In this document: one piece after another, positions 772-32,218 of the stretch | Numbering within the stretch: the stretch's first letter is position 1 | How the letters are laid out: the number at the start of each line of letters is the position of its first letter | Source of the DNA: Lysobacterales bacterium | GTDB lineage: Bacteria > Pseudomonadota > Gammaproteobacteria > Nevskiales > Salinisphaeraceae | NCBI GenBank assembly: GCA_002715985.1 | Contig: PBAO01000053.1 | Coordinates: 1-62,976, forward strand | Reading direction: 5' to 3' | DNA length: 62,976 nucleotides | Notes under the pieces: generated by a model | What the model was told of the DNA's origin: nothing | Seen by the model: only the letters and a program-made list of their open reading frames with translations | The model's database searches: none | Made by a program: the position numbers and the translations under genes

Positions 772-1170
772 ATGACACGCGTTGTTGACGCAATCACCGG
801 AATCGCCCTGCTGGCCGCGGCGTTCGCGGCCACGGCCGGTACCGAGGTCTTCACCGTCGCCGGCGTGCCGGTGACCCATGTGCCGGACAACGCGACGGTG
901 GTCGAACTCGACAAGCCGTCCCGGCTCGACAAGCAGCTGTCACAGGGCCTGCCCGACAAGAAGGATGCCGCGGCACGGGCGGTCCAGAAACGCGTGGCCG
1001 GCTTCAAGAAAGCGTATGGCGAGGCTTATAGCGGGCTCATGCGGGCCTGGCGGCTCGGTGTGACGAAAGTCCCGGCGGTCGTGGTCGACGGCACCTACGT
1101 CGTCTATGGCCAGCCGGACGTGACGGCCGCGGTCGCCGAGATCCGCCGGGCCGAAACCAGGGAGAAATGA
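772..1170 (+). CDS. TIGR03757-family (PFL_4709-like) integrating conjugative element protein
   Basis: AGTEVFTVAGVPVTHV...GVTKVPAVVVDGTYVVYGQPDVTAAVAEI; order matches the ICE cluster. Confidence 0.7.
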   Translation: MTRVVDAITGIALLAAAFAATAGTEVFTVAGVPVTHVPDNATVVELDKPSRLDKQLSQGLPDKKDAAARAVQKRVAGFKKAYGEAYSGLMRAWRLGVTKVPAVVVDGTYVVYGQPDVTAAVAEIRRAETREK

Positions 1171-2123
1171 TCATGACCGATCGACGTGTCCCGATCCTGT
1201 TGTTTGCCGGGCTCACATTGCTGGTGAGCGCGTCCGTCGTGCCGCGGCCGGCCCAGGCCATCGATACTGGCACGATCGTCGCATCGGCGGCGTCCTGGGC
1301 CTGTTTGGATTACCAGGTGACCGGCGTCTGTGTCTGGCTGACCTGTACCCCGTTCGGCTGCTATACGCAGACCAGCGTCAAGGTCCGGCATTACATGCCG
1401 GAGCTCGTGGTCTCGGTTTATCAGCAAAGCGGCGATAACCCGTGGTCGGTTATCTCGCCCCTGGCCCCGTCGAACGCGACCGCCGAAGGCGGCGGGAATC
1501 GCACGGAAGGCTGGGCCGGCCGAGACCACAAGATGCTGCGGTTCAAGAATGCCGACGCAGTCGGCCATCCCGCCGCGGCCGGCTTCGATCTGCTGTCGAG
1601 TGTGGGCTACACCTGTGAGGCGGCGGCGACCCCGATGCAGCCCTATTTCCTGTCGGTATTCGATTCTCTGGCCTGGCGGGCGGGGGTGCCGGAATCGGCC
1701 TATCCCGAAGCGCTGACACCCGGCGCACGAACCATCAGCCAGACTGGCGACCAGTGGGGCCACGTCTATCCGCGCTCGGGCTTCGTCACGCAGAGCAACG
1801 ATTACAAGGCCGCAGCCGTGATCGCCCAGCGCGTGGCGGATTTCGTCACTCGATCCGGCCAGCCGCATGTCTATACGCCGCTACAGGGTCACGACAAACC
1901 AGGTTACTGGGCACCGGGCCCGGTCAGGGAAGGCGATGGGTCGACCGGCAAGTGGCAACGGCTGCAACCGAACCTGACGAAGTCGTGCTCGGTGTTCCCC
2001 GATCGCGGTATCGCCGCGAGCTATTCAAACGTGCTCGCCGACGACGGCGACTATGTCTGGGCGCTGTGGCGCCCTTACGAATGCTGCAAGCGGCGCGGCG
2101 AAGAACTGATCTTTGCCAGTTAG
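1167..2123 (+). CDS. TIGR03756-family (PFL_4710/TraU-like) ICE protein
   Basis: Signal peptide then CLDYQVTGVCVWLTCTPFGCYTQTSVKVRHYMPELVVSVY; overlaps previous stop. Confidence 0.75.
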   Translation: MIMTDRRVPILLFAGLTLLVSASVVPRPAQAIDTGTIVASAASWACLDYQVTGVCVWLTCTPFGCYTQTSVKVRHYMPELVVSVYQQSGDNPWSVISPLAPSNATAEGGGNRTEGWAGRDHKMLRFKNADAVGHPAAAGFDLLSSVGYTCEAAATPMQPYFLSVFDSLAWRAGVPESAYPEALTPGARTISQTGDQWGHVYPRSGFVTQSNDYKAAAVIAQRVADFVTRSGQPHVYTPLQGHDKPGYWAPGPVREGDGSTGKWQRLQPNLTKSCSVFPDRGIAASYSNVLADDGDYVWALWRPYECCKRRGEELIFAS

Positions 2124-2133
2124 GGAGATAACA

Positions 2134-2553
2134 ATGAACAACGACACTCACTGGGGTCTGCGCACGGCCATGATGGCAATGCTGATCGCCGGGATCGCAT
2201 TGCTGGCCGGTTGCGGATCCGACGTCGGGCCGTCGGTCGACAAGGTGCGTCTGGATCTACTCGACCGGATGAACCAGATGTATGGCGGGCTGCTCGAGAC
2301 CCATGACTTCGAGATCGATGAACGTCAGGTGCTAAGTGAGGACCGGGTGAAGTTTCATATCGTCGCCAGCTTCAAGCTCGATCCCGAACGTGCCCAACAG
2401 GTCCGGTCCTCTCACTCGAAAACGATCCGTCAGCAATTCGCGTTGCGCAAAGCCGGGACACTGCAGGGCAAGGACGAACGCGCAACCTTGATTTACAAGC
2501 GCACCGGACAAGGCGCCTGGCAGATCTACAACGTGCAGCAGGGTTACCAATAG
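2134..2553 (+). CDS. lipoprotein, ICE-associated
   Basis: N-terminal lipobox-like sequence IALLAGCGSD. Confidence 0.55.
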   Translation: MNNDTHWGLRTAMMAMLIAGIALLAGCGSDVGPSVDKVRLDLLDRMNQMYGGLLETHDFEIDERQVLSEDRVKFHIVASFKLDPERAQQVRSSHSKTIRQQFALRKAGTLQGKDERATLIYKRTGQGAWQIYNVQQGYQ

Positions 2554-2563
2554 AGGCATCGTC

Positions 2564-4033
2564 ATGATTACGAGGTTCCGAACAGTCGTGACGTCACTCG
2601 TTCGACATCGATCATGGGTGGGCGTATCGCTCTGTTTGCTGTGCCTGGCACTGCCAGCGACGGGCTGGACCGCCTCCGGCGACGATCTGTACTACCGGAT
2701 CGGCGGCGGAGGGCCGGTGAGCGCGTCGGCCGGCCGGGGCTATCAGCCCGGGCAACTCGGTTTAGGGATCAACTGGAACCAGGGTTCGGCCTGCAGTGGG
2801 CTCGATCCCCAAGCCACCGTCGCCAATCAGCTCAACGGCGCGACCCGTGGTTTTCAGAATATGATGGGCTCGGTGGTGCAGAACGCCACCGGTGCGGTCG
2901 CGGCCCTGCCGGCGATGATCATCCAGCGCGCCGCGCCGGGCCTTTATGACCTGCTGTCGAACGGTGTGCTGCAAGGCCGGCTGGACTTCAATAAAGCCAA
3001 GACATCCTGCAAAGCCATGGCCAAACGTGCGGCGGACGCCATTACATCGGGCGGCTGGCAGCAACAGGCCCAGGCGGAGAACTGGGAGAACACCGCCGCG
3101 ACCAACGGCGATGCGGTGGCCGCCGAACAGACTGTCGAGTCGCAAGGCGGCGACAAGGGCGTGACCTGGGTTGGCGGCGAAAAGCGCGGCGGCACCGCGC
3201 AAGCGCCGGTCGAGGTCACACACGATACCGCCGTCGCCGGCTACAACATTCTGCACGGCCGCACGGATCCAACCAGCACGCAGCCGGTCTCCGGTGGTGG
3301 CCAAGGCTGGGGCAGCGTGCCGACATCCAGCGGCTCGTGGCCCGGCAGCGGCGGCTCGGGGTCGAACGGAGGATCGGGCAGCATGGGCAGCGGTTGTCAC
3401 GGCGGCATGTGCACGGTCTGGGGCTCGCCTACCGAGGCGTCGCAATGGATTACCGACGTCGTCGGGGAGAGACAGATCCGGACCTGCAGCGGCTGCGAGA
3501 AAGTGCAGTCGAAGTCCGGTACCGGCCTGATGCGTGCCCTCGAGGACCAGCAAGACAAGATCGAAACCAAGCTGACGGCCATGGCCAACGGCAGCCAGCC
3601 GATCACCGATGCCAATCTGCGGGCGGTCTCGGCCGGTGCGACGCTGTCGGTGTCCCGCGGTGTCATCAAGTCGCTGCAGCATGATCCACAAGGCGAGCTC
3701 CTGACGCATCGGCTGGCATCCGAGATGGCCTTGGCGCGAACCCTCACGCAGGCCCTCTGGGCACGGCGGATCATGCTGGCCGGCGCGGACGAGCCCGGTA
3801 TTGCCAACAACAAGGAGGGTCAGGACGCGATCAACGGCGAATTGACCCGTCTCGACCGCGGTATCGAGGCATTGCGGACCGAGATGGAAGTCCGTCGGTC
3901 GCTGGCCCACAACGCCGCCACGATGGCCCTGACCCGCAACCAGGGCAGCGCCGATCGCGGTACGCCCGCCAACACGGAGGCAGGTGATCGCGAGATCGAC
4001 AGCCGAGGGGCCATCGATGGCAATAACCCATAA
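2564..4033 (+). CDS. TIGR03755-family (PFL_4711-like) ICE protein
   Basis: DDLYYRIGGGGPVSASAGRGYQPGQLGLGINWN...GCHGGMCTVWGSP...; cluster order. Confidence 0.7.
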   Translation: MITRFRTVVTSLVRHRSWVGVSLCLLCLALPATGWTASGDDLYYRIGGGGPVSASAGRGYQPGQLGLGINWNQGSACSGLDPQATVANQLNGATRGFQNMMGSVVQNATGAVAALPAMIIQRAAPGLYDLLSNGVLQGRLDFNKAKTSCKAMAKRAADAITSGGWQQQAQAENWENTAATNGDAVAAEQTVESQGGDKGVTWVGGEKRGGTAQAPVEVTHDTAVAGYNILHGRTDPTSTQPVSGGGQGWGSVPTSSGSWPGSGGSGSNGGSGSMGSGCHGGMCTVWGSPTEASQWITDVVGERQIRTCSGCEKVQSKSGTGLMRALEDQQDKIETKLTAMANGSQPITDANLRAVSAGATLSVSRGVIKSLQHDPQGELLTHRLASEMALARTLTQALWARRIMLAGADEPGIANNKEGQDAINGELTRLDRGIEALRTEMEVRRSLAHNAATMALTRNQGSADRGTPANTEAGDREIDSRGAIDGNNP

Positions 4034-4394
4034 AACCAGCCGACTCGGCGCCTGGGCGGTCTTTCTGATCGCCTGGGCTGCGGTCATTGTCGCGGCGCTG
4101 GCTATCGTCGCGGTCGGCGTGTCGATGGCCGGCAGCGCGGTCGGCTTCCGCGACTGGCTGGCCCGCATCGCTCCCTACGCCCTGATCTGGCGTGTTGGCG
4201 TCTATGCCGTCGTCGGCACGCTCTATATCACCCGATGGCGCCCGCGCTTGCGCGCAGCCCAGCAACGCCAGACCGATGGCGGCGAAGCGGCTCACCAACG
4301 ACTTGTTCGTGTCGAGCGGATGTTGCTGGTGGTGATCGCCGTGATCGAGGCGGCGAATCTGCCCGATCTCATCGGCTGGATGTCGGCGGGCTAG
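4017..4394 (+). CDS. small membrane protein of the tra cluster
   Basis: MAITHKTSRLGAWAVFLIAWAAVIVAALAIVAVGVSM..., hydrophobic helices, between TIGR03755- and TraG-like genes. Confidence 0.55.
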   Translation: MAITHKTSRLGAWAVFLIAWAAVIVAALAIVAVGVSMAGSAVGFRDWLARIAPYALIWRVGVYAVVGTLYITRWRPRLRAAQQRQTDGGEAAHQRLVRVERMLLVVIAVIEAANLPDLIGWMSAG

Positions 4395-4406
4395 CGGAGA
4401 ACCGTC

Positions 4407-5915
4407 ATGAGTGTGGATCTGAGCGTATTCGATTTCTTCGAGAACGTCGTGCTGATGCTCGGCTGGATCGTGAACAACGCGATCTGGGGCGTTCTCAACA
4501 AGACGATGCTCGCCGCGGTGCCCTTTGCCGCGCTCATTATACGTGAGTGGTATACCGCGCGGCGTGAAGGCGAGGACGAGGGCAACAAGGGTCTGCTCTC
4601 GCTCAACCGGATCGAGACCACGCTGTACGCGATGCTGCTGGTGTATGCGTTCGCCGCGGTCCCGCTGCTGAGCGTGCAGTTCGCGCCGGCGAATTACGAT
4701 CAACAGCACTATGAGCAATGCGGCATGAAGGTAGCGGGCAGCGGCACGTCAACTGGCGCCGGGGCATCCTTGGGCGGCAAGACGGCCGATATTCCGCTGT
4801 GGTGGGCGGTTGTCCACGCGGTCTCGAACGGTATCACTAACGCCGCGCTGGCCGCCCTGCCTTGTAACACCGACTATCAGTATCTGCGCACCGAACTCGA
4901 TCGCACGGCGATCCAGGATCCGACGTTGCGCAGCGAGGTCGTGCGGTTCCAGCGCTGGTGTTATGGCCGCTCCCGGACCCAGCTGTTCCGTAAATCCGCC
5001 GGTCTGGACGCGGCCACGGCCAAGGATACCGACTGGATCGGGTCGCACTATTTCCTGAACACCGCCGGCTACTACGATAGCTTCCAGTCGCATCGTCCGG
5101 TCCAGGGGTTTGCTTACAACGGGTCGCGGGACTCCGGCTTCGGGACGGGACCGTCGCAAGGCGGCTACCCCACCTGCAAGCAGTGGTGGTCCGCGTCCGG
5201 GAACGGGCTCAAGGCCCGCCTGCACGATCAGATCGATACCAGCCTTTGGCAGAACATCCATGCGGCATTCACGTCGTCGACGGCCGACGACTATGCCATT
5301 CGGGCCCTGCTGAATACGCATGGCGGGATGGCCAACGGCAATTCGAGCAGCGATGTGATCTCGGGTTCCGGCGGCGGCAACGGACTTAACAGCACGGTCG
5401 GGACGGTGGCCGGTGCCTTCGGCGCCGGGCTCGGCTGGCTACCGGCCGAAGGCATGAAGGATGTCGCGGCACGGGCCATGCCCATGGTGCAGTACCTGCT
5501 GATGATGGCGATGGTCATCGCCATGCCGATCCTGATCGTGATTTCAGGTTACAGCGCCAAGGTCGTCGGGATCCTGACCTTTTCCTACTTCGGGATGGCC
5601 TCGCTGACGTTCTGGTTCGCCCTGTCCCGGTGGCTGAGCAATAACCTGGTGGACATGCTTTACCAAAGCGACGCGGCCAAGCTCGGCTTCATGGCCGGCC
5701 TGAGCAATGCCTACGATATTTCGATTCTGACCCTGGTACAGGCGACGATGGTGGTTGTGTTACCCACCGCATGGCTTGCGATGTTGGGTTGGGCTGGGGC
5801 TGGAATCGGCTCTGGATTAGGTAGTGCCGTTCAAGGAGGCTCGAAAGAAGCGGGCGCGGCAGGCAAGAAGGGAGGAGAAAAAGGCAAAAGTATGGCGTCA
5901 GGAGGGAAACTATAA
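4407..5915 (+). CDS. TraG N-terminal-like conjugal transfer mating-pair protein
   Basis: ~500 aa multi-TM protein at the TraG position, Gly/Lys-rich C-terminal tail. Confidence 0.7.
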   Translation: MSVDLSVFDFFENVVLMLGWIVNNAIWGVLNKTMLAAVPFAALIIREWYTARREGEDEGNKGLLSLNRIETTLYAMLLVYAFAAVPLLSVQFAPANYDQQHYEQCGMKVAGSGTSTGAGASLGGKTADIPLWWAVVHAVSNGITNAALAALPCNTDYQYLRTELDRTAIQDPTLRSEVVRFQRWCYGRSRTQLFRKSAGLDAATAKDTDWIGSHYFLNTAGYYDSFQSHRPVQGFAYNGSRDSGFGTGPSQGGYPTCKQWWSASGNGLKARLHDQIDTSLWQNIHAAFTSSTADDYAIRALLNTHGGMANGNSSSDVISGSGGGNGLNSTVGTVAGAFGAGLGWLPAEGMKDVAARAMPMVQYLLMMAMVIAMPILIVISGYSAKVVGILTFSYFGMASLTFWFALSRWLSNNLVDMLYQSDAAKLGFMAGLSNAYDISILTLVQATMVVVLPTAWLAMLGWAGAGIGSGLGSAVQGGSKEAGAAGKKGGEKGKSMASGGKL

Positions 5916-9962: not shown

Positions 9963-12900
9963 CTACGCGCCCCCTGCGCGCGTCGCGAACACACGAGACC
10001 CGCTGTACGTCCGATCCGACGTCAGCAGATGACCGATGGCCCAACCGGCCGTGCATGACAACGCCCCAACATTATCCTTGCGCATCGACCGAAACGCAGC
10101 CTCGATCAACGGGCCGCCGTAGTTTTCTCGTCCGCCGACCAAATGCTCCAGCAGGTGATGTGAGACCCGGTTGCGATACGGTAGGTGTCGACTGGGAATG
10201 AATCTCCCGCCGGGCTCCCACAGCGCATCGATGGTCATACCGATGAACCAGGCATGGAATAACGCGTTAACCGGCCGCCCCGGGTTGTCCCCCACCGGGG
10301 CCAGGCGCTGGATCAGCGGCCCGGGCGCCGCGTGCCCGTCGGCATGATCCAACGCGGCTGCGGTCACGAGGTCGATGGGCGACACGAGACTGAGGTCACT
10401 CCCAATCGCTGCGTAGTCCGCCTGGCAGCAAACGAAGGGCTCGGGGCTCATCGCCCCGTGCATGACCCCAGCAAGGTGTATGACCTGCGGACATATCGCC
10501 TCGCCATGGGTCAGTGCCGCAAAGAGATCGCGGGCACGGGCGTCGTCCGATACCAATAACAGCCCCTGGTTGATCGCGAGCACCATGCTATCGAATACCG
10601 GCAGCGGCATTTCTAGCGCCAGTTGACGCAAGCCGGCTGGCACCGCATCCGACATCTCCTGAGGGGCGAGGACAGCATGCTCATTTGCCCAGGCGATCGC
10701 GCCCTCGAGCGCAGACCGCTGGGCCGCCAGCTGGTCTTCCTCCGTGGTCACCCCGACCAGCCGCTCCGACGTCGCCGTCCACTCAAGATGGAGCTGATCG
10801 CCCGGCGGCTGGGCGTCGAGGTACTCAAGCCGCCCCTGAAGCTGATCGAACACGGCGCGTGGCAAGTGGATCGGACCGCACAGCTGTTCGATCAGCTCGA
10901 GCGTGCCCTGTGACCAGGCTACCCAGTAGCTCATCATGTCTAGTACGCAACCCGACGGTGGGCGCGATAGCAGCCTGTGCGCCTGGCTGACCGGATAAGC
11001 GTTGGCGCCAGCCACCGCGATATGACGACCCTGTTTGCGGACCATGTCCGCCGCTTCCAGTCCGCCGACACTGAACGCCCAGCCCAACATCTCGAGCGGC
11101 ATCGGCAACCGGCAGTATTGCTCGACTTGGCGCGCGATCGCGTCAGCGCGCGCTCTGATCTGCGCCTCGATCGGGGCGAGGCTCGCCTCCGGGTCATCCC
11201 TGTCCATCTCTATTGACTGGATATCGGAGCGGTAGAAGCGAGCCTCGAAATTCGATCCGATTGTGCGCACGCGCTCGAAGTATTTGTGCTGGACCCGCAC
11301 AACCTCACCCCGACCTCGCCCTTGCTCTTCGAACTGGTGGCCGTGCGATGCGCCCCAAAGCGTGGCCACTAGCGGCTGGTCGGGCTCAAGTGCAGCTTGG
11401 TCGATCGCGCGAAGCTCGGGATCGGGCTCAACGACAAACTGTCGCTGTTCGCCGTCGTCATACCGAATGGTCACGGCGGCCTGCGCGGTGACGCCATCAA
11501 GACGCCATCGCTCGTCGCCCGGGGTGCGCAGTTGATGGCCTTGGATCAACTGAAACAGACAGTCCCAGGCCTTGGGTTCGTCCTGATGCGTCATATATAA
11601 CCGGTAGGCGAGCGCAGCCGCCCGGTCGATGTAATCGAAGCGCGCCAGCAGATGGACGATCTCACACTCACGCTCGAGGGATGGCCAGTCCATATCCTCG
11701 ACAGGCGCGGCGAGGAGCGCGCGCGCCGCCGGGACGTCTCTATCGCGTGCGCAGGCATAGCTGAGCAGCAGATGCGCCATGCCTGAGCGCGGCGCCATGG
11801 CGATCAGCGGCTCGAGCTCGACCCGGGCGCGGGTCGGGTTGTTCGTATTCCATGCGTGAAGCGCAACCATCCAGCGCAGTTCGCTGGATTCACGTACCGG
11901 CGCCGGCAGTCGCGAGAGCTCCGTATCGAACAGGGCGTCGCGGCGCGCTGACGATAACAGCCGCAGATACTGGACCGCCTCGCGAGAGCCCGACGCGACA
12001 TTCACCCGGCCTTCGATCAGCCGAACGGCCGCGTCGGGCAGACCCCGCGCGGCGAGCATTTCAGCCAGCTGCGCCCGATCGGCGAACGGCGTGGCCTCAG
12101 GCACGGACTCGACCACACCACGCGCGCGCTGGCGGGTCGGGTCGCCCGGGGGGGTCGCCACATCACGGCATACGGCCAGCACGTCGGCCAGAGCCTCGCG
12201 CCCGGCCGCGGCCAGCCGCGCGATGCTGTCGTCCAACGCCGCCTGGTCGCCGGCGGCCAGGCTGTAGAAGGCCATTAATCGACATCGCTGAATCTCGAGG
12301 CTGTCGTCCTGCACGCCCATCTCGCGCAGAACAGCCACGGCATCCGAGTCCTTGCCCTGGGCATTGAGCATCTGGGCGCGCAGCAGCTGGTTCGCGGGCG
12401 TCTCGCGCGTGGCCAGATACGCCAGCGCCTCATCCAGGCGACCGACCTCACCCAGCAAGCTGGCATAGAGATGTTCCAGATGTGGTTCGAGCGAGATCCG
12501 ATCGAACACGCGCACGATCAAATCTAGCGCTTCTTGTTCTCGATCGCACAGGCGCAGGAGCAACACCGTGTTGTTCGCCTGGGCCGACAGCGTGACGTCA
12601 TCGACCCGCTCAGCAGCCAGCTGCTCTTCACAGCCAGCCAGTGAGATATCCGCAGCCCGGGCCAGCACATCCGGTGCAACGCGTGCGTCATGGGCCCGGT
12701 TCTGATCCGGGCCTTCGAGCACGCGCGCGAGCGTCGCGAAGGCACCCAGGCGCTGCAGCTCGGTATGCTCTGGATGGAGCGCGGCCAGCGCGGCGATCGT
12801 ATCGGCGAAGCCGTCGGTCTGACGCCACCGGTGGAATTCGGCCAGGCCGAGAGCCGCCTGCGCTGTCCCGACCAGGTTTGCAGGGATATCATCCGCCGGA

Positions 12901-13979
12901 TTGCCACTCCAGTCCATACGCGCCAGCGCCAGCAGGCGAACAATCACCGCACTGGCGTTGTCGGGCGCATCGCTCGCGGCGAGTGATTGGGCGGCGAGTT
13001 CGGCCGCGCCCTCGCAATCATCCTGCATCAGACGCGCCAGGGCCAGATTCGCGATCGCCTGGGGACGGGTGGGGTTGAGGGCGTGGGCCGCCTCGTACGC
13101 CGCAATGGCCTTCGCGATCTCATGCCGACGCCCGCGAACATGACCGAGCAGCGCTTGCAGCCGGTATCGAGCCCGGGGCGCGTCCGCCACGCTCGGCTTG
13201 TCGAGCATCGATTCCAGTCGCTGCGCCAAGGCCTCGGTGGTATCGCCGGCATCGACCGCCGCCTGGAGCTCGTCGATCCATTCGTGAAGGGTGGCGTCTT
13301 CGCCTTCGTCGCCGGCATGGTCGGGGGTGTGCAGTCCGGCACTGACCGGGACGGGGCCCTGCATTTGATCGAGCCGGCTGAGCACCTCGCGAACCATAGT
13401 CTGGGTCGCGTTGTGCCTGTCCGCGTCGCCAGAAGTGAAGTCCGCATCGTTGTTCCCGCAGTACGCGCGGTAGAGGACGTCGTCCTGGTAGACCATCTTC
13501 GAGATGTCATTCCAGGTCCGCAGCTCGATCGCCGGATCGTCGCCGCCCGCGAATTCCTTTCGGACTGTGACCAAGGCGTCGACGCCTTTCCGATCGTCCG
13601 GCGCCGTGGTAGCAAAGATCAGGGTGTCGATACTGAAGGGCAGCTTGCGCGTCTTCTTGATTTCGGTTCGCAGTACTTCTGCCATTAGTGGATTGTCCGT
13701 GCGCTTGCACTGGATCCCGATTAGCCGATGAGGATCACCATCGACCGCAATGAGAGTGTCGATGCCATCCTGGGCCTGGCCACCGCGGCCATAGGGTTGC
13801 GGGTTCGGGTCGTTGTAAAAACGCCCGAAGAGCTCGACACAGAGACGCTCGAAGGCTTGCCAGTCCTTCGGCACCGGCAGCTCGTAGCCTTCGCGATAGA
13901 ACACCGGGCCCGACAGCAGGGCCCGGCGGCCCGCCACATCCGGTTGCTCGTCCGGCCCGCCCTCGTTGTCCCCCGTCAT
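9963..13979 (-). CDS. PD-(D/E)XK nuclease - TPR - GreAB-C-like - PIN-like large protein (candidate conflict/defence effector)
   Basis: N-term WQAFERLCVELFGRFY...GRGGQAQDGIDTLIAVDG..LIGIQCKR (D...QxK nuclease core); long helical/TPR repeats; GreAB-C-like QPLVATLWGASHGHQFE..GEVVRVQHKYFERV; PIN-like GCVLDMMSYWVAW...LLLVSDDARARDLFAAL. Confidence 0.7.
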   Translation of the reverse strand: MTGDNEGGPDEQPDVAGRRALLSGPVFYREGYELPVPKDWQAFERLCVELFGRFYNDPNPQPYGRGGQAQDGIDTLIAVDGDPHRLIGIQCKRTDNPLMAEVLRTEIKKTRKLPFSIDTLIFATTAPDDRKGVDALVTVRKEFAGGDDPAIELRTWNDISKMVYQDDVLYRAYCGNNDADFTSGDADRHNATQTMVREVLSRLDQMQGPVPVSAGLHTPDHAGDEGEDATLHEWIDELQAAVDAGDTTEALAQRLESMLDKPSVADAPRARYRLQALLGHVRGRRHEIAKAIAAYEAAHALNPTRPQAIANLALARLMQDDCEGAAELAAQSLAASDAPDNASAVIVRLLALARMDWSGNPADDIPANLVGTAQAALGLAEFHRWRQTDGFADTIAALAALHPEHTELQRLGAFATLARVLEGPDQNRAHDARVAPDVLARAADISLAGCEEQLAAERVDDVTLSAQANNTVLLLRLCDREQEALDLIVRVFDRISLEPHLEHLYASLLGEVGRLDEALAYLATRETPANQLLRAQMLNAQGKDSDAVAVLREMGVQDDSLEIQRCRLMAFYSLAAGDQAALDDSIARLAAAGREALADVLAVCRDVATPPGDPTRQRARGVVESVPEATPFADRAQLAEMLAARGLPDAAVRLIEGRVNVASGSREAVQYLRLLSSARRDALFDTELSRLPAPVRESSELRWMVALHAWNTNNPTRARVELEPLIAMAPRSGMAHLLLSYACARDRDVPAARALLAAPVEDMDWPSLERECEIVHLLARFDYIDRAAALAYRLYMTHQDEPKAWDCLFQLIQGHQLRTPGDERWRLDGVTAQAAVTIRYDDGEQRQFVVEPDPELRAIDQAALEPDQPLVATLWGASHGHQFEEQGRGRGEVVRVQHKYFERVRTIGSNFEARFYRSDIQSIEMDRDDPEASLAPIEAQIRARADAIARQVEQYCRLPMPLEMLGWAFSVGGLEAADMVRKQGRHIAVAGANAYPVSQAHRLLSRPPSGCVLDMMSYWVAWSQGTLELIEQLCGPIHLPRAVFDQLQGRLEYLDAQPPGDQLHLEWTATSERLVGVTTEEDQLAAQRSALEGAIAWANEHAVLAPQEMSDAVPAGLRQLALEMPLPVFDSMVLAINQGLLLVSDDARARDLFAALTHGEAICPQVIHLAGVMHGAMSPEPFVCCQADYAAIGSDLSLVSPIDLVTAAALDHADGHAAPGPLIQRLAPVGDNPGRPVNALFHAWFIGMTIDALWEPGGRFIPSRHLPYRNRVSHHLLEHLVGGRENYGGPLIEAAFRSMRKDNVGALSCTAGWAIGHLLTSDRTYSGSRVFATRAGGA

Positions 13980-27956: not shown

Positions 27957-28211
27957 GACGCCCCTCATATCGGACGTTTTATGAGTTAACTAGTATGGCA
28001 TACCGACAACGCGCGGTCAGCCTGCTGGGCGCATTTCCCGGTCTCGCGGATCATTGACAGCGTGCGCCGCGCAGCGGCAAGCTATCCATACACCCCACCG
28101 CTAGGTTTATAGCGGCCCTTGAAGCCTCGCCGGGTCGTGCGACGAGGCGCCTTTCTAGGTTCGATCCAAACTTCGCCATCAACTGCCGCTCTGCCGGCGG
28201 TCCTTTGCCCA

Positions 28212-28267
28212 CCAGGGAAATATCATCCCTGGGCGGATCGGTGTTTCCCGCTCTCAGGAGAAACACC
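28212..28267 (+). promoter_or_regulatory. structured leader L1
   Basis: P1 CCAGGGA/TCCCTGG; P2 GGGAAATATC/GGTGTTTCCC; P3 GGTGTTT/AAACACC before ATG. Confidence 0.7.
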
Positions 28268-28729
28268 ATGCATCGCTTCACGCGCGACGATCGTCAATCA
28301 ATCCTCGATCGGGTCTATACCCATTTCATCGAAAACCAACAGCCCGCCGGACGTGACAATGGCGGCGCGCGCTGTCTCTATCACGGCGTCGACAAGAACG
28401 GGCCGCAGGTGTCCTGCGCGATCGGGATCTTCGATACCGATCATCGGTTCGACCGCGAATCGCTCATCACGTTAGGGGTTCGTCAAATGATCGACGTCGA
28501 CCCAGACGCGCTCGCTGACGTGTTCGGTAGCGCGGTGTTCAACGACCTGGATCTCGAGTTTCTAATCGGCGTTCAGGATGAACACGACCTGGCCGTGCGC
28601 CGTGCCGCATTGTCGGACCCGAACTTCGACACATTCTTCATCGAGGAATTGGCACACCGGCTTGATCGTTTTGCCGGTGAACAAGATCTCGTTTCGCCGT
28701 GTTCACCGAGTGATCTCGGGCCCGGCTGA
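28268..28729 (+). CDS. hypothetical ICE accessory protein
   Basis: ORF with SD AGGAG and leader L1; MHRFTRDDRQSILDRVYTHFIENQQPAGRDNGGARCLYHG. Confidence 0.65.
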   Translation: MHRFTRDDRQSILDRVYTHFIENQQPAGRDNGGARCLYHGVDKNGPQVSCAIGIFDTDHRFDRESLITLGVRQMIDVDPDALADVFGSAVFNDLDLEFLIGVQDEHDLAVRRAALSDPNFDTFFIEELAHRLDRFAGEQDLVSPCSPSDLGPG

Positions 28730-28873
28730 GTTATAGACACTCGCTCATGCGAGCACTTTCTTCCCGAGCCGAGTTGGCTGATGGTCTTGAACGCATTGCG
28801 TGCGATGAGGACCTGGCGCCGGTTCATTCTTTCTAATCCAATGCCACGCTTACGCGGGCCTTTCTTCACCCAC

Positions 28874-28933
28874 CACGGGGCAGTTCCACCCCGTGAGGCG
28901 TGGTGTCTGCCCCTTTATCCAAGGAGCATCACC
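28874..28933 (+). promoter_or_regulatory. structured leader L2
   Basis: P1 CACGGGG/CCCCGTG; P2 GGGGCAG/CTGCCCC; TGGTG vs CACCA at start codon. Confidence 0.65.
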
Positions 28934-29374
28934 ATGACGCTTGAAACCGACGACTTCGTGACGGGTCAATCGATTCTCACCACAGCCACTCGGGTGCCAG
29001 TGAATCGGCGCATGCAGTTTCTACCGCGGTTTCTCGGCCACGACATGCGGGTCGGCGAAGCCCTGGTTTATGACTGGATGCAGGCACTTGCCCCGGATTA
29101 CGGCGGCGGCTACTGGGAGTTTTACGAATTGAGCAACGGCGGCTTTTACATGGCGCCCGAGCTCGGTTGTGAAACGATCCGGATCCGCTGCCCCGGCAAT
29201 TTCTACGACGCAACCATGTCGCCCGATGCCGCCGGTATCGTCGCGACGCTTTATGCGCTCAATGCGTTGGTCTGGAAGACACGCAAAGCGGAACTCAGGG
29301 ACATGTTCGACCGGCTTCGTGATTACGCCGGCGATCATACCGAAGGGCCGAAGATCTTCGCGGCCATCGACTGA
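28934..29374 (+). CDS. klcA: ArdB/KlcA-family antirestriction protein
   Basis: VNRRMQFLPRFLGHDMRVGEALVYDWMQALAPDYGGGYWEFYELSNGGFYMAPE. Confidence 0.85.
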   Translation: MTLETDDFVTGQSILTTATRVPVNRRMQFLPRFLGHDMRVGEALVYDWMQALAPDYGGGYWEFYELSNGGFYMAPELGCETIRIRCPGNFYDATMSPDAAGIVATLYALNALVWKTRKAELRDMFDRLRDYAGDHTEGPKIFAAID

Positions 29375-29416
29375 ATTGGACCGACCAAGACACGCTTTTA
29401 AGCGCGTCATTTCCCA

Positions 29417-29473
29417 CTGCGGGGCATATCACCCCGCAGGGCGTGGTGTGCCCTTTTTTCAAGGAGTATCACC
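29417..29473 (+). promoter_or_regulatory. structured leader L3
   Basis: P1 CTGCGGGG/CCCCGCAG; P2 GGGCATATCA/TGGTGTGCCC. Confidence 0.7.
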
Positions 29474-29932
29474 ATGCTTTTAGCGCTATCCGACGATGAT
29501 GCAATGATCGTTCGCCAGGCGAGCGAGATCATGAAGCGCCACTTGATCTCAGATCGGACCGTACTGAGCAGCCCGATGGATACTCGGGAGTATCTGCAGC
29601 TTCAGATCGCACACCTCGAGCACGAGGTCTTTGGCGTGATCTTCGTCACTAATCGCAATCAGATTATTGACGATCGGATCATGTTTCGCGGGACGATCGA
29701 CGGCGCTGCCGTCTATCCGCGCGAGATCGCCAAGGAGGCTTTGCGGCTCAATGCGTCCGGTCTGGTGCTTTATCACAATCATCCGAGCGGTGTATCCGAG
29801 CCGTCCTGGGCCGATCGCGACATCACGGAGCGGATCACCCAGGCGGTCGGATTGTTCGATATGCGCGTTCTGGATCATCTGATCGTGGCGAGCGATCACG
29901 CGACCTCGATGGCCGAACGCGGTCTCATTTGA
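29474..29932 (+). CDS. RadC-like JAB-domain protein
   Basis: VIFVTNRNQIIDDRIMFRGTIDGAAVYPREIAKEALRLNASGLVLYHNHPSGVSEPSWADRDIT. Confidence 0.9.
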   Translation: MLLALSDDDAMIVRQASEIMKRHLISDRTVLSSPMDTREYLQLQIAHLEHEVFGVIFVTNRNQIIDDRIMFRGTIDGAAVYPREIAKEALRLNASGLVLYHNHPSGVSEPSWADRDITERITQAVGLFDMRVLDHLIVASDHATSMAERGLI

Positions 29933-29939
29933 CGTTCAC

Positions 29940-29964
29940 GACCAGGGCTTCGCCCTGGTTTTTC
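29940..29964 (+). terminator. Rho-independent terminator
   Basis: ACCAGGGC-TTCG-CCCTGGTTTTTCTTT. Confidence 0.75.
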
Positions 29965-29971
29965 TTTCTAA

Positions 29972-30031
29972 CCCCATCGGGGCATGCCGCCCCAATGGGG
30001 TGGCGTGTGCCCGATTCATTCGGAGTACACC
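29972..30031 (+). promoter_or_regulatory. structured leader L4
   Basis: P1 CCCCAT.GGGGC/GCCCC.ATGGGG; downstream GGCGTGTGCCC and ACACCATG. Confidence 0.6.
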
Positions 30032-30616
30032 ATGCAGACACAAGCACAGATCTATCGCTCTGTTCGCCATAAACAGTCGGCTCTGCCAGCGCTATCCGCC
30101 TGGCAGCACGCCGGTCAGAAGCTCGAAGTCGATCGCTGGATCGCCCGCGTCGATTTCGAGTGGAACGACCCGATCGCGCCGCGCTTTGCGCGGTGGCGTG
30201 AGTCTGGATTCGACATCGAAGCCTGTCTCGAGACCGATGAACACGGCTGGGATCTAGTCGGCGTCGACACGATCGGCGAATTTCAAAATCGCTGGGTACC
30301 CGGCGCGATCGCACACGATCGATTCAACAATCGCGTGCTCGACTGGTTCGTGCCGGCCAATGCCAGCTATGCCCAGGCCCATCCGGTATACGGCCAGGCT
30401 CAGTACAAACGGGCCTGCGCCTATGGCCACGATTGGGACTACCTGGTTTTGACGGTCAAGGCCATCCGGGCCGATGTCGAGCTCGGCGTGGCCGTGCTCG
30501 GCGGTATCGAATCGGATAGCGACGAGGATTTCGTGACCGAGTCGGTGTTCGACCTCACGGCCGAGGCTATCCAAACGGCTGGCCTCAAACTCCGCGAGCT
30601 CTGCGGCGAATGCTAA
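30032..30616 (+). CDS. hypothetical ICE accessory protein
   Basis: 194 aa ORF after leader L4. Confidence 0.6.
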   Translation: MQTQAQIYRSVRHKQSALPALSAWQHAGQKLEVDRWIARVDFEWNDPIAPRFARWRESGFDIEACLETDEHGWDLVGVDTIGEFQNRWVPGAIAHDRFNNRVLDWFVPANASYAQAHPVYGQAQYKRACAYGHDWDYLVLTVKAIRADVELGVAVLGGIESDSDEDFVTESVFDLTAEAIQTAGLKLRELCGEC

Positions 30617-30661
30617 CGAGCTCGTTCGCTGCCGGTTTTACCTGAGCCCGGCTTTCATCCA

Positions 30662-30717
30662 TCGGGGATCCACCATCCCCGAGGGCTTGGTGTTTCCCGT
30701 TTTATTGGAGAACCACC
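30662..30717 (+). promoter_or_regulatory. structured leader L5
   Basis: P1 TCGGGGAT/ATCCCCGA; TGGTGTT and AACCACCATG. Confidence 0.6.
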
Positions 30718-31117
30718 ATGAAATACGTCGTGGGCTATTCACTGCCCTACTTCCACCACGTCCAGGTCGGCATCGAGGCCGACTCCCCGGATCATGCGAT
30801 CGAGCGTGCTCAGGCATTATTCGATACGGGCGAGATCTGGGATGACACGCCGGGAGCATCCCTTGCTTCGGGATGATTTCGACGAGGACGTCGACGCTGG
30901 AGTCGCGCTTACGTTCGAGATCGTACAAACGATCGAGACCGAGGGCGATTTCCCGGCACCGGATCACAGCGTCAATCAGCTCCGATCCGACGCCAAAGCA
31001 CGGGCTGCGGCCCGCGCGCTCGTCGCGGCCTATCAACAAGGCGAGGCCAACGGCGGTTCGATCGATTGGTCGGATCTCGATGTGGCCTATGAGCTCGCCC
31101 TGGCCAGCCAGGGCTGA
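30718..31117 (+). pseudogene. hypothetical ICE accessory gene with 1-nt frameshift near 30853
   Basis: MKYVVGYSLPYFHHVQVGIEADSPDHAIERAQALFDTGEIWDDTP| then +1 frame EHPLLRDDFDEDVDAGVALTFEI... Confidence 0.6.
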
Positions 31118-31173
31118 TCAGCTATAACGAGCTGATCTGACAAAACCGCGCCCATTCAGGGGCGTTTTATCCA

Positions 31174-31233
31174 CCCGCAGGGGAACATCACCCCGGCGGG
31201 GCCTGGTGTTCCTCTTTTCACAGGAGCAACACC
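31174..31233 (+). promoter_or_regulatory. structured leader L6
   Basis: P1 CCCGC.GGGG/CCCC.GCGGG; P2 GGAACATCA/TGGTGTTCC; P3 GGTGTT/AACACC before ATG. Confidence 0.7.
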
Positions 31234-31536
31234 ATGAAAACGACATCGACCCAGTCCGCCGGTCCTTCCGGGGCAAACTGCGACACCACGCCGCCGACGC
31301 TGGCCATCGTCATCGAAGGTGGCCTGGTGCAAGCGGTGGTGACCGATCGTCCAGAGGCCATCCGTGTGAACGTTCGGATCATCGACTACGACACCGACGG
31401 TGCCTCTGACGATGAGCTGTCAGAGGTGCCGCAAGGCGACGGCTCGTTCTGCGATGCCGTCGTCGATCATCGAGACCTGACCGAGGCGGCTATCGACCTC
31501 CATCACATCGTCGACAAGACCGATTCGGATCCATAA
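31234..31536 (+). CDS. hypothetical ICE accessory protein
   Basis: 100 aa ORF after leader L6. Confidence 0.55.
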   Translation: MKTTSTQSAGPSGANCDTTPPTLAIVIEGGLVQAVVTDRPEAIRVNVRIIDYDTDGASDDELSEVPQGDGSFCDAVVDHRDLTEAAIDLHHIVDKTDSDP

Positions 31537-31637
31537 GCGGCGTTGATCATTCGTACTGACGTCATGCTAGGCCGGTCGCACTGCGGCCGTGCCGAGCTCA
31601 ACACAAACGTCCGCTGACGCGGACTTCTCATCATCCA

Positions 31638-31702
31638 CCCGCCGGGGAACACCACGTCCCTGGCGGGCGCCGGTGTTCCCCTTTTTTCACAGGAGCAACA
31701 CC
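31638..31702 (+). promoter_or_regulatory. structured leader L7
   Basis: P1 CCCGCC/GGCGGG; P2 GGGGAACACC/GGTGTTCCCC (10 bp); P3 GGTGTT/AACACC before ATG. Confidence 0.72.
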
Positions 31703-32218
31703 ATGGGATGGTTAATCACACAGGGCCAGACGAAGGCCGAACTCATCGAACACCTCACCGAAGGTGACGCCAACCTGCGCACGCATCGGCAATGCGTGCG
31801 GGGCAACGTACTCTGGACCATTCAGGAAAACCTGAAATACCTGGGGTTGGGTCGATTCATCGTGGCGTATCTGATGGTTCACGATCCGGGCTACGGCTGG
31901 GGCTATAAACCCGTCGAGGAATCGATGGGGCCGGCCGAGCTCTCGTGCCCGGTGTCGTATCTCGACGCAGTACCCGTGCCCGATAGCGAGTTCGCTGCAC
32001 CATGGCGAGAGCGTGTTCGGCGGCGTCATGCCGACAAACAACGCCTCAAGCGCACGGTGGCCGCGGCCTCGATCGGCGATCAGGTCACGCTCACCGAAGG
32101 GTGTTTTCCGCACACGGTGACGCTGACGTCCCGGAAACCGCTGATCGGCCAAGCCGACGACGGCTCGTGCTGGCGGATTCCCCGCCGGTGCATTGCGTCG
32201 ATCAATTCGACCGCCTGA
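31703..32218 (+). CDS. conserved ICE accessory protein
   Basis: MGWLITQGQTKAELIEHLTEGDANLRTHRQCVRGNVLWTIQE..., after leader L7. Confidence 0.65.
   Translation: MGWLITQGQTKAELIEHLTEGDANLRTHRQCVRGNVLWTIQENLKYLGLGRFIVAYLMVHDPGYGWGYKPVEESMGPAELSCPVSYLDAVPVPDSEFAAPWRERVRRRHADKQRLKRTVAAASIGDQVTLTEGCFPHTVTLTSRKPLIGQADDGSCWRIPRRCIASINSTA

Follow-up and report, generated by a model that had tools for sequence, protein, structure and literature searches.

Introduction

Trp-type attenuators and translational riboswitches build three alternative helices from four strands. The radC RNA sits in the 5' untranslated regions of integrase, methyltransferase, antirestriction or radC genes. This motif (RF01754; Weinberg 2010, PMC2864571) is a cis-regulatory RNA of proteobacterial conjugative elements, and STAXI (RF01728; PMC2864571), a tandem pseudoknot, is a repeated structured element near antirestriction and single-stranded-DNA-handling genes of mobile elements. 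In the MS2 leader and the metastable hok/aapA mRNAs, a transient co-transcriptional fold yields to a final fold that governs access to the Shine-Dalgarno sequence (SD), and in the MS2 maturation-protein leader the transient fold allows translation (PMC6733600). ROSE-like RNA thermometers (RF02523) enclose the SD in a hairpin. Here, a contig of 62,976 nt from a Salinisphaera-type genome (the window; PBAO01000053.1 of assembly GCA_002715985.1) was analyzed, in which seven small genes in a row (28203-32218) are each preceded by a leader of about 70 nt that ends at the gene's own ATG. This leader is probably a cis-acting, bistable ribosome binding site (RBS) leader, i.e., a translational switch that would be OFF at equilibrium and ON either transiently or when stabilized by a factor.

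The comparison with Rfam, including STAXI, that the original prediction suggested yielded no family matching the leader, radC included, at the level of either gathering score or E-value. There was no match between the STAXI model and the leader, and radC RNA (at least 40 bits) was found neither in the window at the gathering score, nor in 28000-31900 at an E-value of 10, nor at the leaders of the same genome. The leader has the gene context of the radC RNA, with ArdC, KlcA, RadC and methyltransferase genes downstream, which is a shared context only. The two RNAs differ in sequence and structure, the radC model comprising 149 positions and no SD hairpin; moreover, the leader lies 3' of the radC RNA and mostly occurs without it. 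Unlike the tandem pseudoknot of STAXI, the leader would mask the RBS. It shares the layout of three helices from four strands with trp-type attenuators and translational riboswitches, but possesses neither a leader peptide nor a conserved aptamer core, and its output is apparently access to the SD. Whereas the MS2, hok and aapA RNAs are single phage or toxin mRNAs, the leader is portable across dozens of unrelated genes and contains a built-in mimic of the RBS. It has an SD-enclosing hairpin in common with ROSE-like thermometers, but its single match to them lies below the gathering score, it is GC-rich, and it has a competing helix (P2, see below). By analogy, the leader may be regarded as an attenuator-type three-helix switch with SD access as output, its logic being closest to that of the MS2 maturation leader. 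Literature searches revealed no description of the leader; the supplements of PMC2864571 lay outside these searches and may mention a hairpin 3' of the radC RNA. The kind of RNA is known; to the extent that the tools used here can tell, the novelty lies in the family, in its portability over dozens of genes and in a design that combines an RBS mimic with a flip set by the order of synthesis.

Seven leaders with three mutually exclusive helices

The leaders of the window are as follows:

28203..28270, + strand: leader L1, comprising P1, linker, anti-SD strand, U-rich loop, SD, CACC and the ATG of gene 1
28864..28936, + strand: leader L2, 5' of the KlcA/ArdB-type antirestriction gene (67.9 bits with covariance model R2)
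29408..29476, + strand: leader L3, 5' of the RadC-like gene; P2 is GGGGCATATCAC/GTGGTGTGCCC, and P3 includes GGAG
29967..30034, + strand: leader L4, the weakest match; P1, P2 (12 bp) and P3 all fit
30653..30720, + strand: leader L5, with model match and fold
31165..31236, + strand: leader L6, with model match and fold
31629..31705, + strand: leader L7, the best match (70 bits with model R2)

The positions predicted for the seven ATGs and leaders (28203-31705) were all correct, and the observation proved real. All seven leaders fold far more stably than dinucleotide shuffles (z of -3.5 to -5.6). For L1, z was -4.1 and the E-value within the window was 1.2e-10 with covariance model R1. The minimum free energy (MFE) fold was P1 plus P3 in seven of seven leaders, with -28 to -38 kcal/mol. 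P3 is a hairpin of GGTGT..CC, a U-rich loop, GGAG and CACC that holds the SD and abuts the ATG. The pairing of GGTGTT with AACACC proposed previously exists, but is only part of P3, which also contains the SD itself. The fold, in which P3 pairs the SD and adjoins the ATG, supports the proposal that the translation start is masked.

In P2, the inner P1 arm and the loop (GGGGCATATCAC in L3) pair with the GGTGTGCCC strand that is used by P3. The basis of this pairing is the resemblance of the P1 arm and loop to the RBS strand (GGAGTATCACC). P1, P2 and P3 exclude one another as had been described. L4 and L5 had been thought to fit P2 and P3 less well, which was not borne out: their P2 helices have 12 and 11 pairs, respectively, and both leaders have P3. 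When the P2 fold was forced, it lay 10.1 kcal/mol above the MFE in L1 and 4.5 kcal/mol above it in L4.

A widespread family before unrelated genes

A first covariance model was built from the seven window leaders with P1 and P3 only. With this model, two copies that had been held out were detected in the same genome but on a different contig (E-values of about 4e-9 and 7e-8); they precede a DUF3577-type and an ArdC-type gene. Matches were also present in 17 of the 100 relatives searched. When 370 genomes of the class were searched with a second model, rebuilt from 71 matches, the leader was found in 27 of them and in 25 of 272 gammaproteobacterial genera. The rebuilt model gave 224 matches at 53 loci; with a single exception among the 224, the matches of a locus share one strand. 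The best 150 of the 224 matches contained 142 distinct leaders, which were used for the analyses below, and 141 of these end at an ATG. Several copies were present on plasmids of Enterobacter ludwigii, Pseudomonas aeruginosa (pY89), Burkholderia glumae and Paraburkholderia phenoliruptrix, and one on a plasmid of Shewanella baltica; on these five public plasmids, the end of the match coincides exactly with the start of a coding sequence annotated independently in 28 of 29 cases. In the Alphaproteobacteria, Tistrella mobilis and Rhizobium (plasmids) carry the leader. The occurrence of the leader is far beyond chance, and the family is larger than seven copies.

The proteins encoded behind the 142 leaders fall into 48 clusters unrelated by BLAST, the largest being DUF6927 (21 of 142). 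Among them are DUF3577 (annotated as the STY4534 family replication protein of integrative and conjugative elements, ICEs), ArdC, KlcA, RadC and SNF2/DEAD-like proteins as well as DUF6573, DUF6094 and C5 methyltransferases, CbbQ-type AAA proteins, DUF3150 and DUF4942. The DNA flanking one chromosomal array, tallied jointly with a second region, contains TraU, TraN, TraK, TraC, TrbI-like and topoisomerase genes. The earlier suggestion of a shared control element of accessory genes of conjugative elements was supported.

Up to 13 leader matches occurred per genome (genome G281; loci L109, 1-9500, and L110, 1-5000), several of them near-identical and before unrelated genes; some of these copies also had near-identical head RNAs. 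Apparently, the control element itself has recently been copied or has undergone gene conversion. Exact-pattern matches in genome contigs of Oscillospiraceae were rejected as chance (best model E-value 0.004; the one inspected lay in a coding-looking open stretch). The single match on a viral contig, also rejected, had no P1. A search by DNA similarity led to RadC genes on large plasmids, but these do not carry the leader.

The helices covary

In the alignment of 142 rows, standard pairs were present in 91.8% of the cells versus 75.0% after shuffling, and two-sided changes were found at 18 of 20 pairs. Covariation was 0.307, compared with 0.111 for shuffled and at most 0.067 for slid alignments. 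In an R-scape-like test (G statistic with average product correction; null from parsimony substitutions re-thrown on a FastTree tree), exactly five column pairs had E<0.05, of which three belong to P1 and two to P3, and the sole additional pair at E<0.5 also lay in P1; the underlying trees are based on about 80 columns.

Covariation of whole strands was assessed in phylogenetically independent leader pairs by comparing the binding of native and swapped strands. The native strands bound better in 35:4 comparisons for P1 (p 1.7e-7), 32:3 for P3 (p 2e-7) and 32:7 for P2 (p 3.5e-5), and also when the P1 loop alone was paired with the anti-SD strand (25:10, p 0.008). Five unrelated strand pairs, used as negative controls, were not significant. 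Since P2 was never part of any model, its covariation is not a fitting artefact. In fifty further leaders held out from model building, 0 of 2000 permutations matched P1, P2 or P3, and the controls were without signal. Thus, the covariation claimed for P1 held both in phylogeny-aware tests and in held-out leaders.

The SD-enclosing P3 was the fold of 134 of 142 leaders and of 47 of the 50 held-out leaders. The three-way match was retained in divergent cases, i.e., GTTACTCTCC / GGAGAGTAAC with the mimic GGGGAGTAAT at locus L070, GGTCTGTC / GACAGACC with the mimic GGGGACACCG at L109, and GACTGGTCTCC / GGAGATCAGTC with the mimic GGGGGATCATT at L072.

The computed order of stability flips along transcription

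Before the SD is transcribed, P2 was more stable than P1 in 133 of 142 leaders, by a median of 5.8 kcal/mol; when the anti-SD strand was taken from another leader, P2 was favored in 40-54%. Once the RBS is present, P1 plus P3 won in 129 of 142 leaders, with a median gap of 7.1 kcal/mol. The held-out leaders behaved alike, with P2 favored before the SD in 44 of 50 and not being the MFE fold after the SD in 45 of 50. In the window leaders, P2 dominated at equilibrium only at transcript lengths of about 42-63 nt. Thus, the equilibrium energies flip in the order expected of a co-transcriptional kinetic leader of the MS2 type (nascent open, final closed). The computations established the four strands, the three covarying helices and this order of energies, with the P2 state favored until the SD is transcribed and the P1 plus P3 state thereafter.

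RNA domains upstream of the leader

In the stretches examined, 21 of 22 radC RNAs lie 0-30 nt 5' of a leader match or overlap it, and on two plasmids 6 of 8 adjoin a leader. The radC RNA was present in 8 of 40 leader-bearing genomes. At loci L127, L128, L089-L097 and L113, it nearly always precedes the leader immediately or reaches into the leader's 5' end. Because the radC RNA is nearly always directly 5' of the leader, the published radC model may stop short of the expression platform. No function of the radC RNA was found in the literature searched. In the window's own genus, another RNA replaces it at the array heads:

28084..28171, + strand: head RNA R3, with three covarying hairpins (covariation 0.791 versus 0.220 shuffled) and a likely pseudoknot GGATCG/CGATCC

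R3 contains CCCUUGAAG and lies directly 5' of leader L1 and 3' of a TTGACA conserved in Salinisphaera; it had no Rfam match in the window. The R3 model found this RNA in 11 of 40 leader-bearing genomes from 6 genera, and in the stretches covered by the search a leader followed immediately after 26 of 34 copies. Other copies lie at L018 (6058-6147), L106, L102, L109/L110 and L105. The array heads carry an extra RNA domain, and the leader itself recurs gene by gene.

A longer R3 variant had no leader match behind it (L018, 7982-8061; L086, 2755-2859; L088, 214-318). R3 (28084-28171) also has CCUUGAAG, the reverse complement of the conserved CUUCAAGG of the radC RNA, which could be due to chance or to an interaction in trans.

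Genes of the array and its surroundings

The genes behind the seven leaders and the conjugation genes of the contig are:

28268..28729, + strand: gene 1, 153 aa, no Pfam family, with orthologs in other Salinisphaera arrays
28934..29374, + strand: gene 2, antirestriction protein PF03230 (KlcA/ArdB; Pfam E-value 1.9e-27)
29474..29932, + strand: gene 3, RadC-like JAB domain PF04002 (Pfam E-value 6.6e-40)
30032..30616, + strand: gene 4, 194 aa, no Pfam family
30718..30876, + strand: gene 5, 52 aa
31234..31536, + strand: gene 6, 100 aa, no Pfam family
31703..32218, + strand: gene 7, 171 aa, DUF6927 (PF21992, Pfam)
1167..5912, + strand: TraU and TraG_N conjugation genes (Pfam E-values 1.3e-58 and 3.6e-51)

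Pfam agreed with the earlier assignment of gene 2 as KlcA/ArdB-like and gene 3 as RadC-like. Gene 5 is shortened in the window, since its counterpart in a relative (locus L087, 3490 onward) has 132 aa. As TraU and TraG_N are encoded on the same contig, the array lies on a conjugative element. The pattern scan named Salinisphaera japonica and S. hydrothermalis as relatives.

Terminator-like hairpins (P0) were seen just 5' of each of the seven leaders, e.g., at 29940-29960. Across the family, P0, noticed by eye as a conserved upstream part, was no more structured than controls and was rejected. No promoter-like sites were seen between the seven genes. On the minus strand, 9966-13979 encodes a protein of 1338 aa that contains a PIN-TPR-GreABC domain and may belong to a defence or stress system of the element.

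Discussion

The switch that we consider probable would operate with four strands. Strand 1, the 5' arm of P1 with the loop, mimics the RBS strand; strand 2 is the 3' arm of P1, strand 3 the anti-SD strand GGTGTNCCC, and strand 4 the RBS strand GGAG..CACC-ATG. In state A, strands 1 and 2 would form P1 and strands 3 and 4 P3, so that the SD and start region would be hidden (OFF). In state B, strands 1 and 3 would form P2, the mimic occupying the anti-SD strand and the RBS being released (ON). The nascent RNA would pass through state B, which would open a short translation window, and then settle in state A. Alternatively, state B may be maintained by a factor, either a protein or an RNA domain located upstream of the leader (radC RNA, R3). 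Either way, each gene of the accessory regulon would obtain tight, pulse-like output. A conserved SD-pairing hairpin and a conserved alternative helix that excludes it, as expected of a riboregulator, are both present. A single common antisense RNA is argued against because seven leaders of the same genome differ and yet keep their internal complementarity. Tentatively, this may be extended to a regulon-wide RNA timer, in which nascent P2 opens the start and final P1 plus P3 closes it, so that translation would occur only while the transcript is young; radC RNA and R3 would modulate the timer, with the radC RNA as its sensor half.

Several observations weigh against this switch. The column pairs of P2 were singly not significant in the R-scape-like test, so that the predicted covariation of P2 stood for strands, including the held-out ones, but not for single columns; the support for P2 rests at the strand level. 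In forced P2 folds, at least 3/4 of the SD was free in just 20 of 142 leaders because RNAfold pairs the SD with the 5' flank. This flank:SD pairing was rejected as a real helix as it does not covary (13:23); nevertheless, it makes a clean ON state less certain. Pairing of the SD alone is not diagnostic, since 152 of 236 control starts in these GC-rich loci were also paired. State B lies a median of 7 kcal/mol above state A and hence needs kinetics or a factor. Finally, 70 of 142 leaders have at least 5 T within 8 nt behind the long GC-rich P2, as would befit an intrinsic terminator.

This last feature leads to the view that the leader is a transcription attenuator, with P2 and the U-rich stretch as terminator, P1 as antiterminator and P3 as secondary. 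P2 is indeed favored over P1 before the SD is made, as a terminator requires, and terminator-like sites were listed at L3 and L6. However, a U-tract after the hairpin would be expected in all members, and the 27 leaders without it (16 loci) keep P2 equally (23 of 27), which argues against termination as the general role of P2. Moreover, P3 covaries strongly and hides the SD, so that the antiterminated transcript would be untranslatable; attenuation is therefore unlikely. That the leader serves as a riboswitch-like expression platform, whose P1, P2 and P3 are set by radC RNA or R3 upon sensing a ligand or protein, is suggested by the proximity of these RNAs to the leader (21 of 22 and, on two plasmids, 6 of 8 for radC RNA; 26 of 34 for R3). 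This reading is doubtful for the family and explains the operon heads only, because most leaders, including L2-L7, have neither domain and the radC RNA is limited to 8 of 40 leader-bearing genomes; the leader itself has no conserved core, and a radC or R3 domain lies upstream in a minority.

Melting of P3 by heat, as in an RNA thermometer, would fit the SD-enclosing hairpin and a sub-threshold ROSE_3 match at one distant leader (26.6 bits versus 43 needed), but is extremely improbable given hairpins that are GC-rich and very stable (-28 to -38 kcal/mol in the seven leaders) and given that such a device requires neither a covarying P2 nor an RBS mimic. The presence on conjugative elements beside 48 unrelated gene families and the thirteen matches in G281, several of them near-identical, could also point to a DNA element such as a single-stranded promoter, a protein operator or a cassette recombination site. 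Against this very unlikely reading, the position is fixed relative to the SD and start codon with the SD inside P3, wobble pairs of the sense strand outnumber the opposite kind (133 G-T, 76 A-C), and the sequence of P1 varies freely while its pairing is kept. Ordinary RBS hairpins spread by recent duplication, without switching, would account for leaders that are near-identical within one element (L109/L110), but hardly for P2, which was never in a model and whose covariation was seen both with independent pairs and with the additional leaders; we regard this as quite unlikely.

A widespread and well-supported RNA family absent from Rfam marks much of the accessory regulon of conjugative elements, comprising antirestriction genes, the ICE replication protein, methyltransferases and dozens of genes of unknown function. 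The leader is a simple marker for annotating such genes, gives the radC RNA a downstream partner, and provides a concrete three-helix mechanism to test. It thus offers a testable account of how conjugative elements may restrain many unrelated genes. If the flip operates in cells, it would represent a general case of mRNAs that are translated only while nascent, a means by which mobile DNA restrains costly genes.

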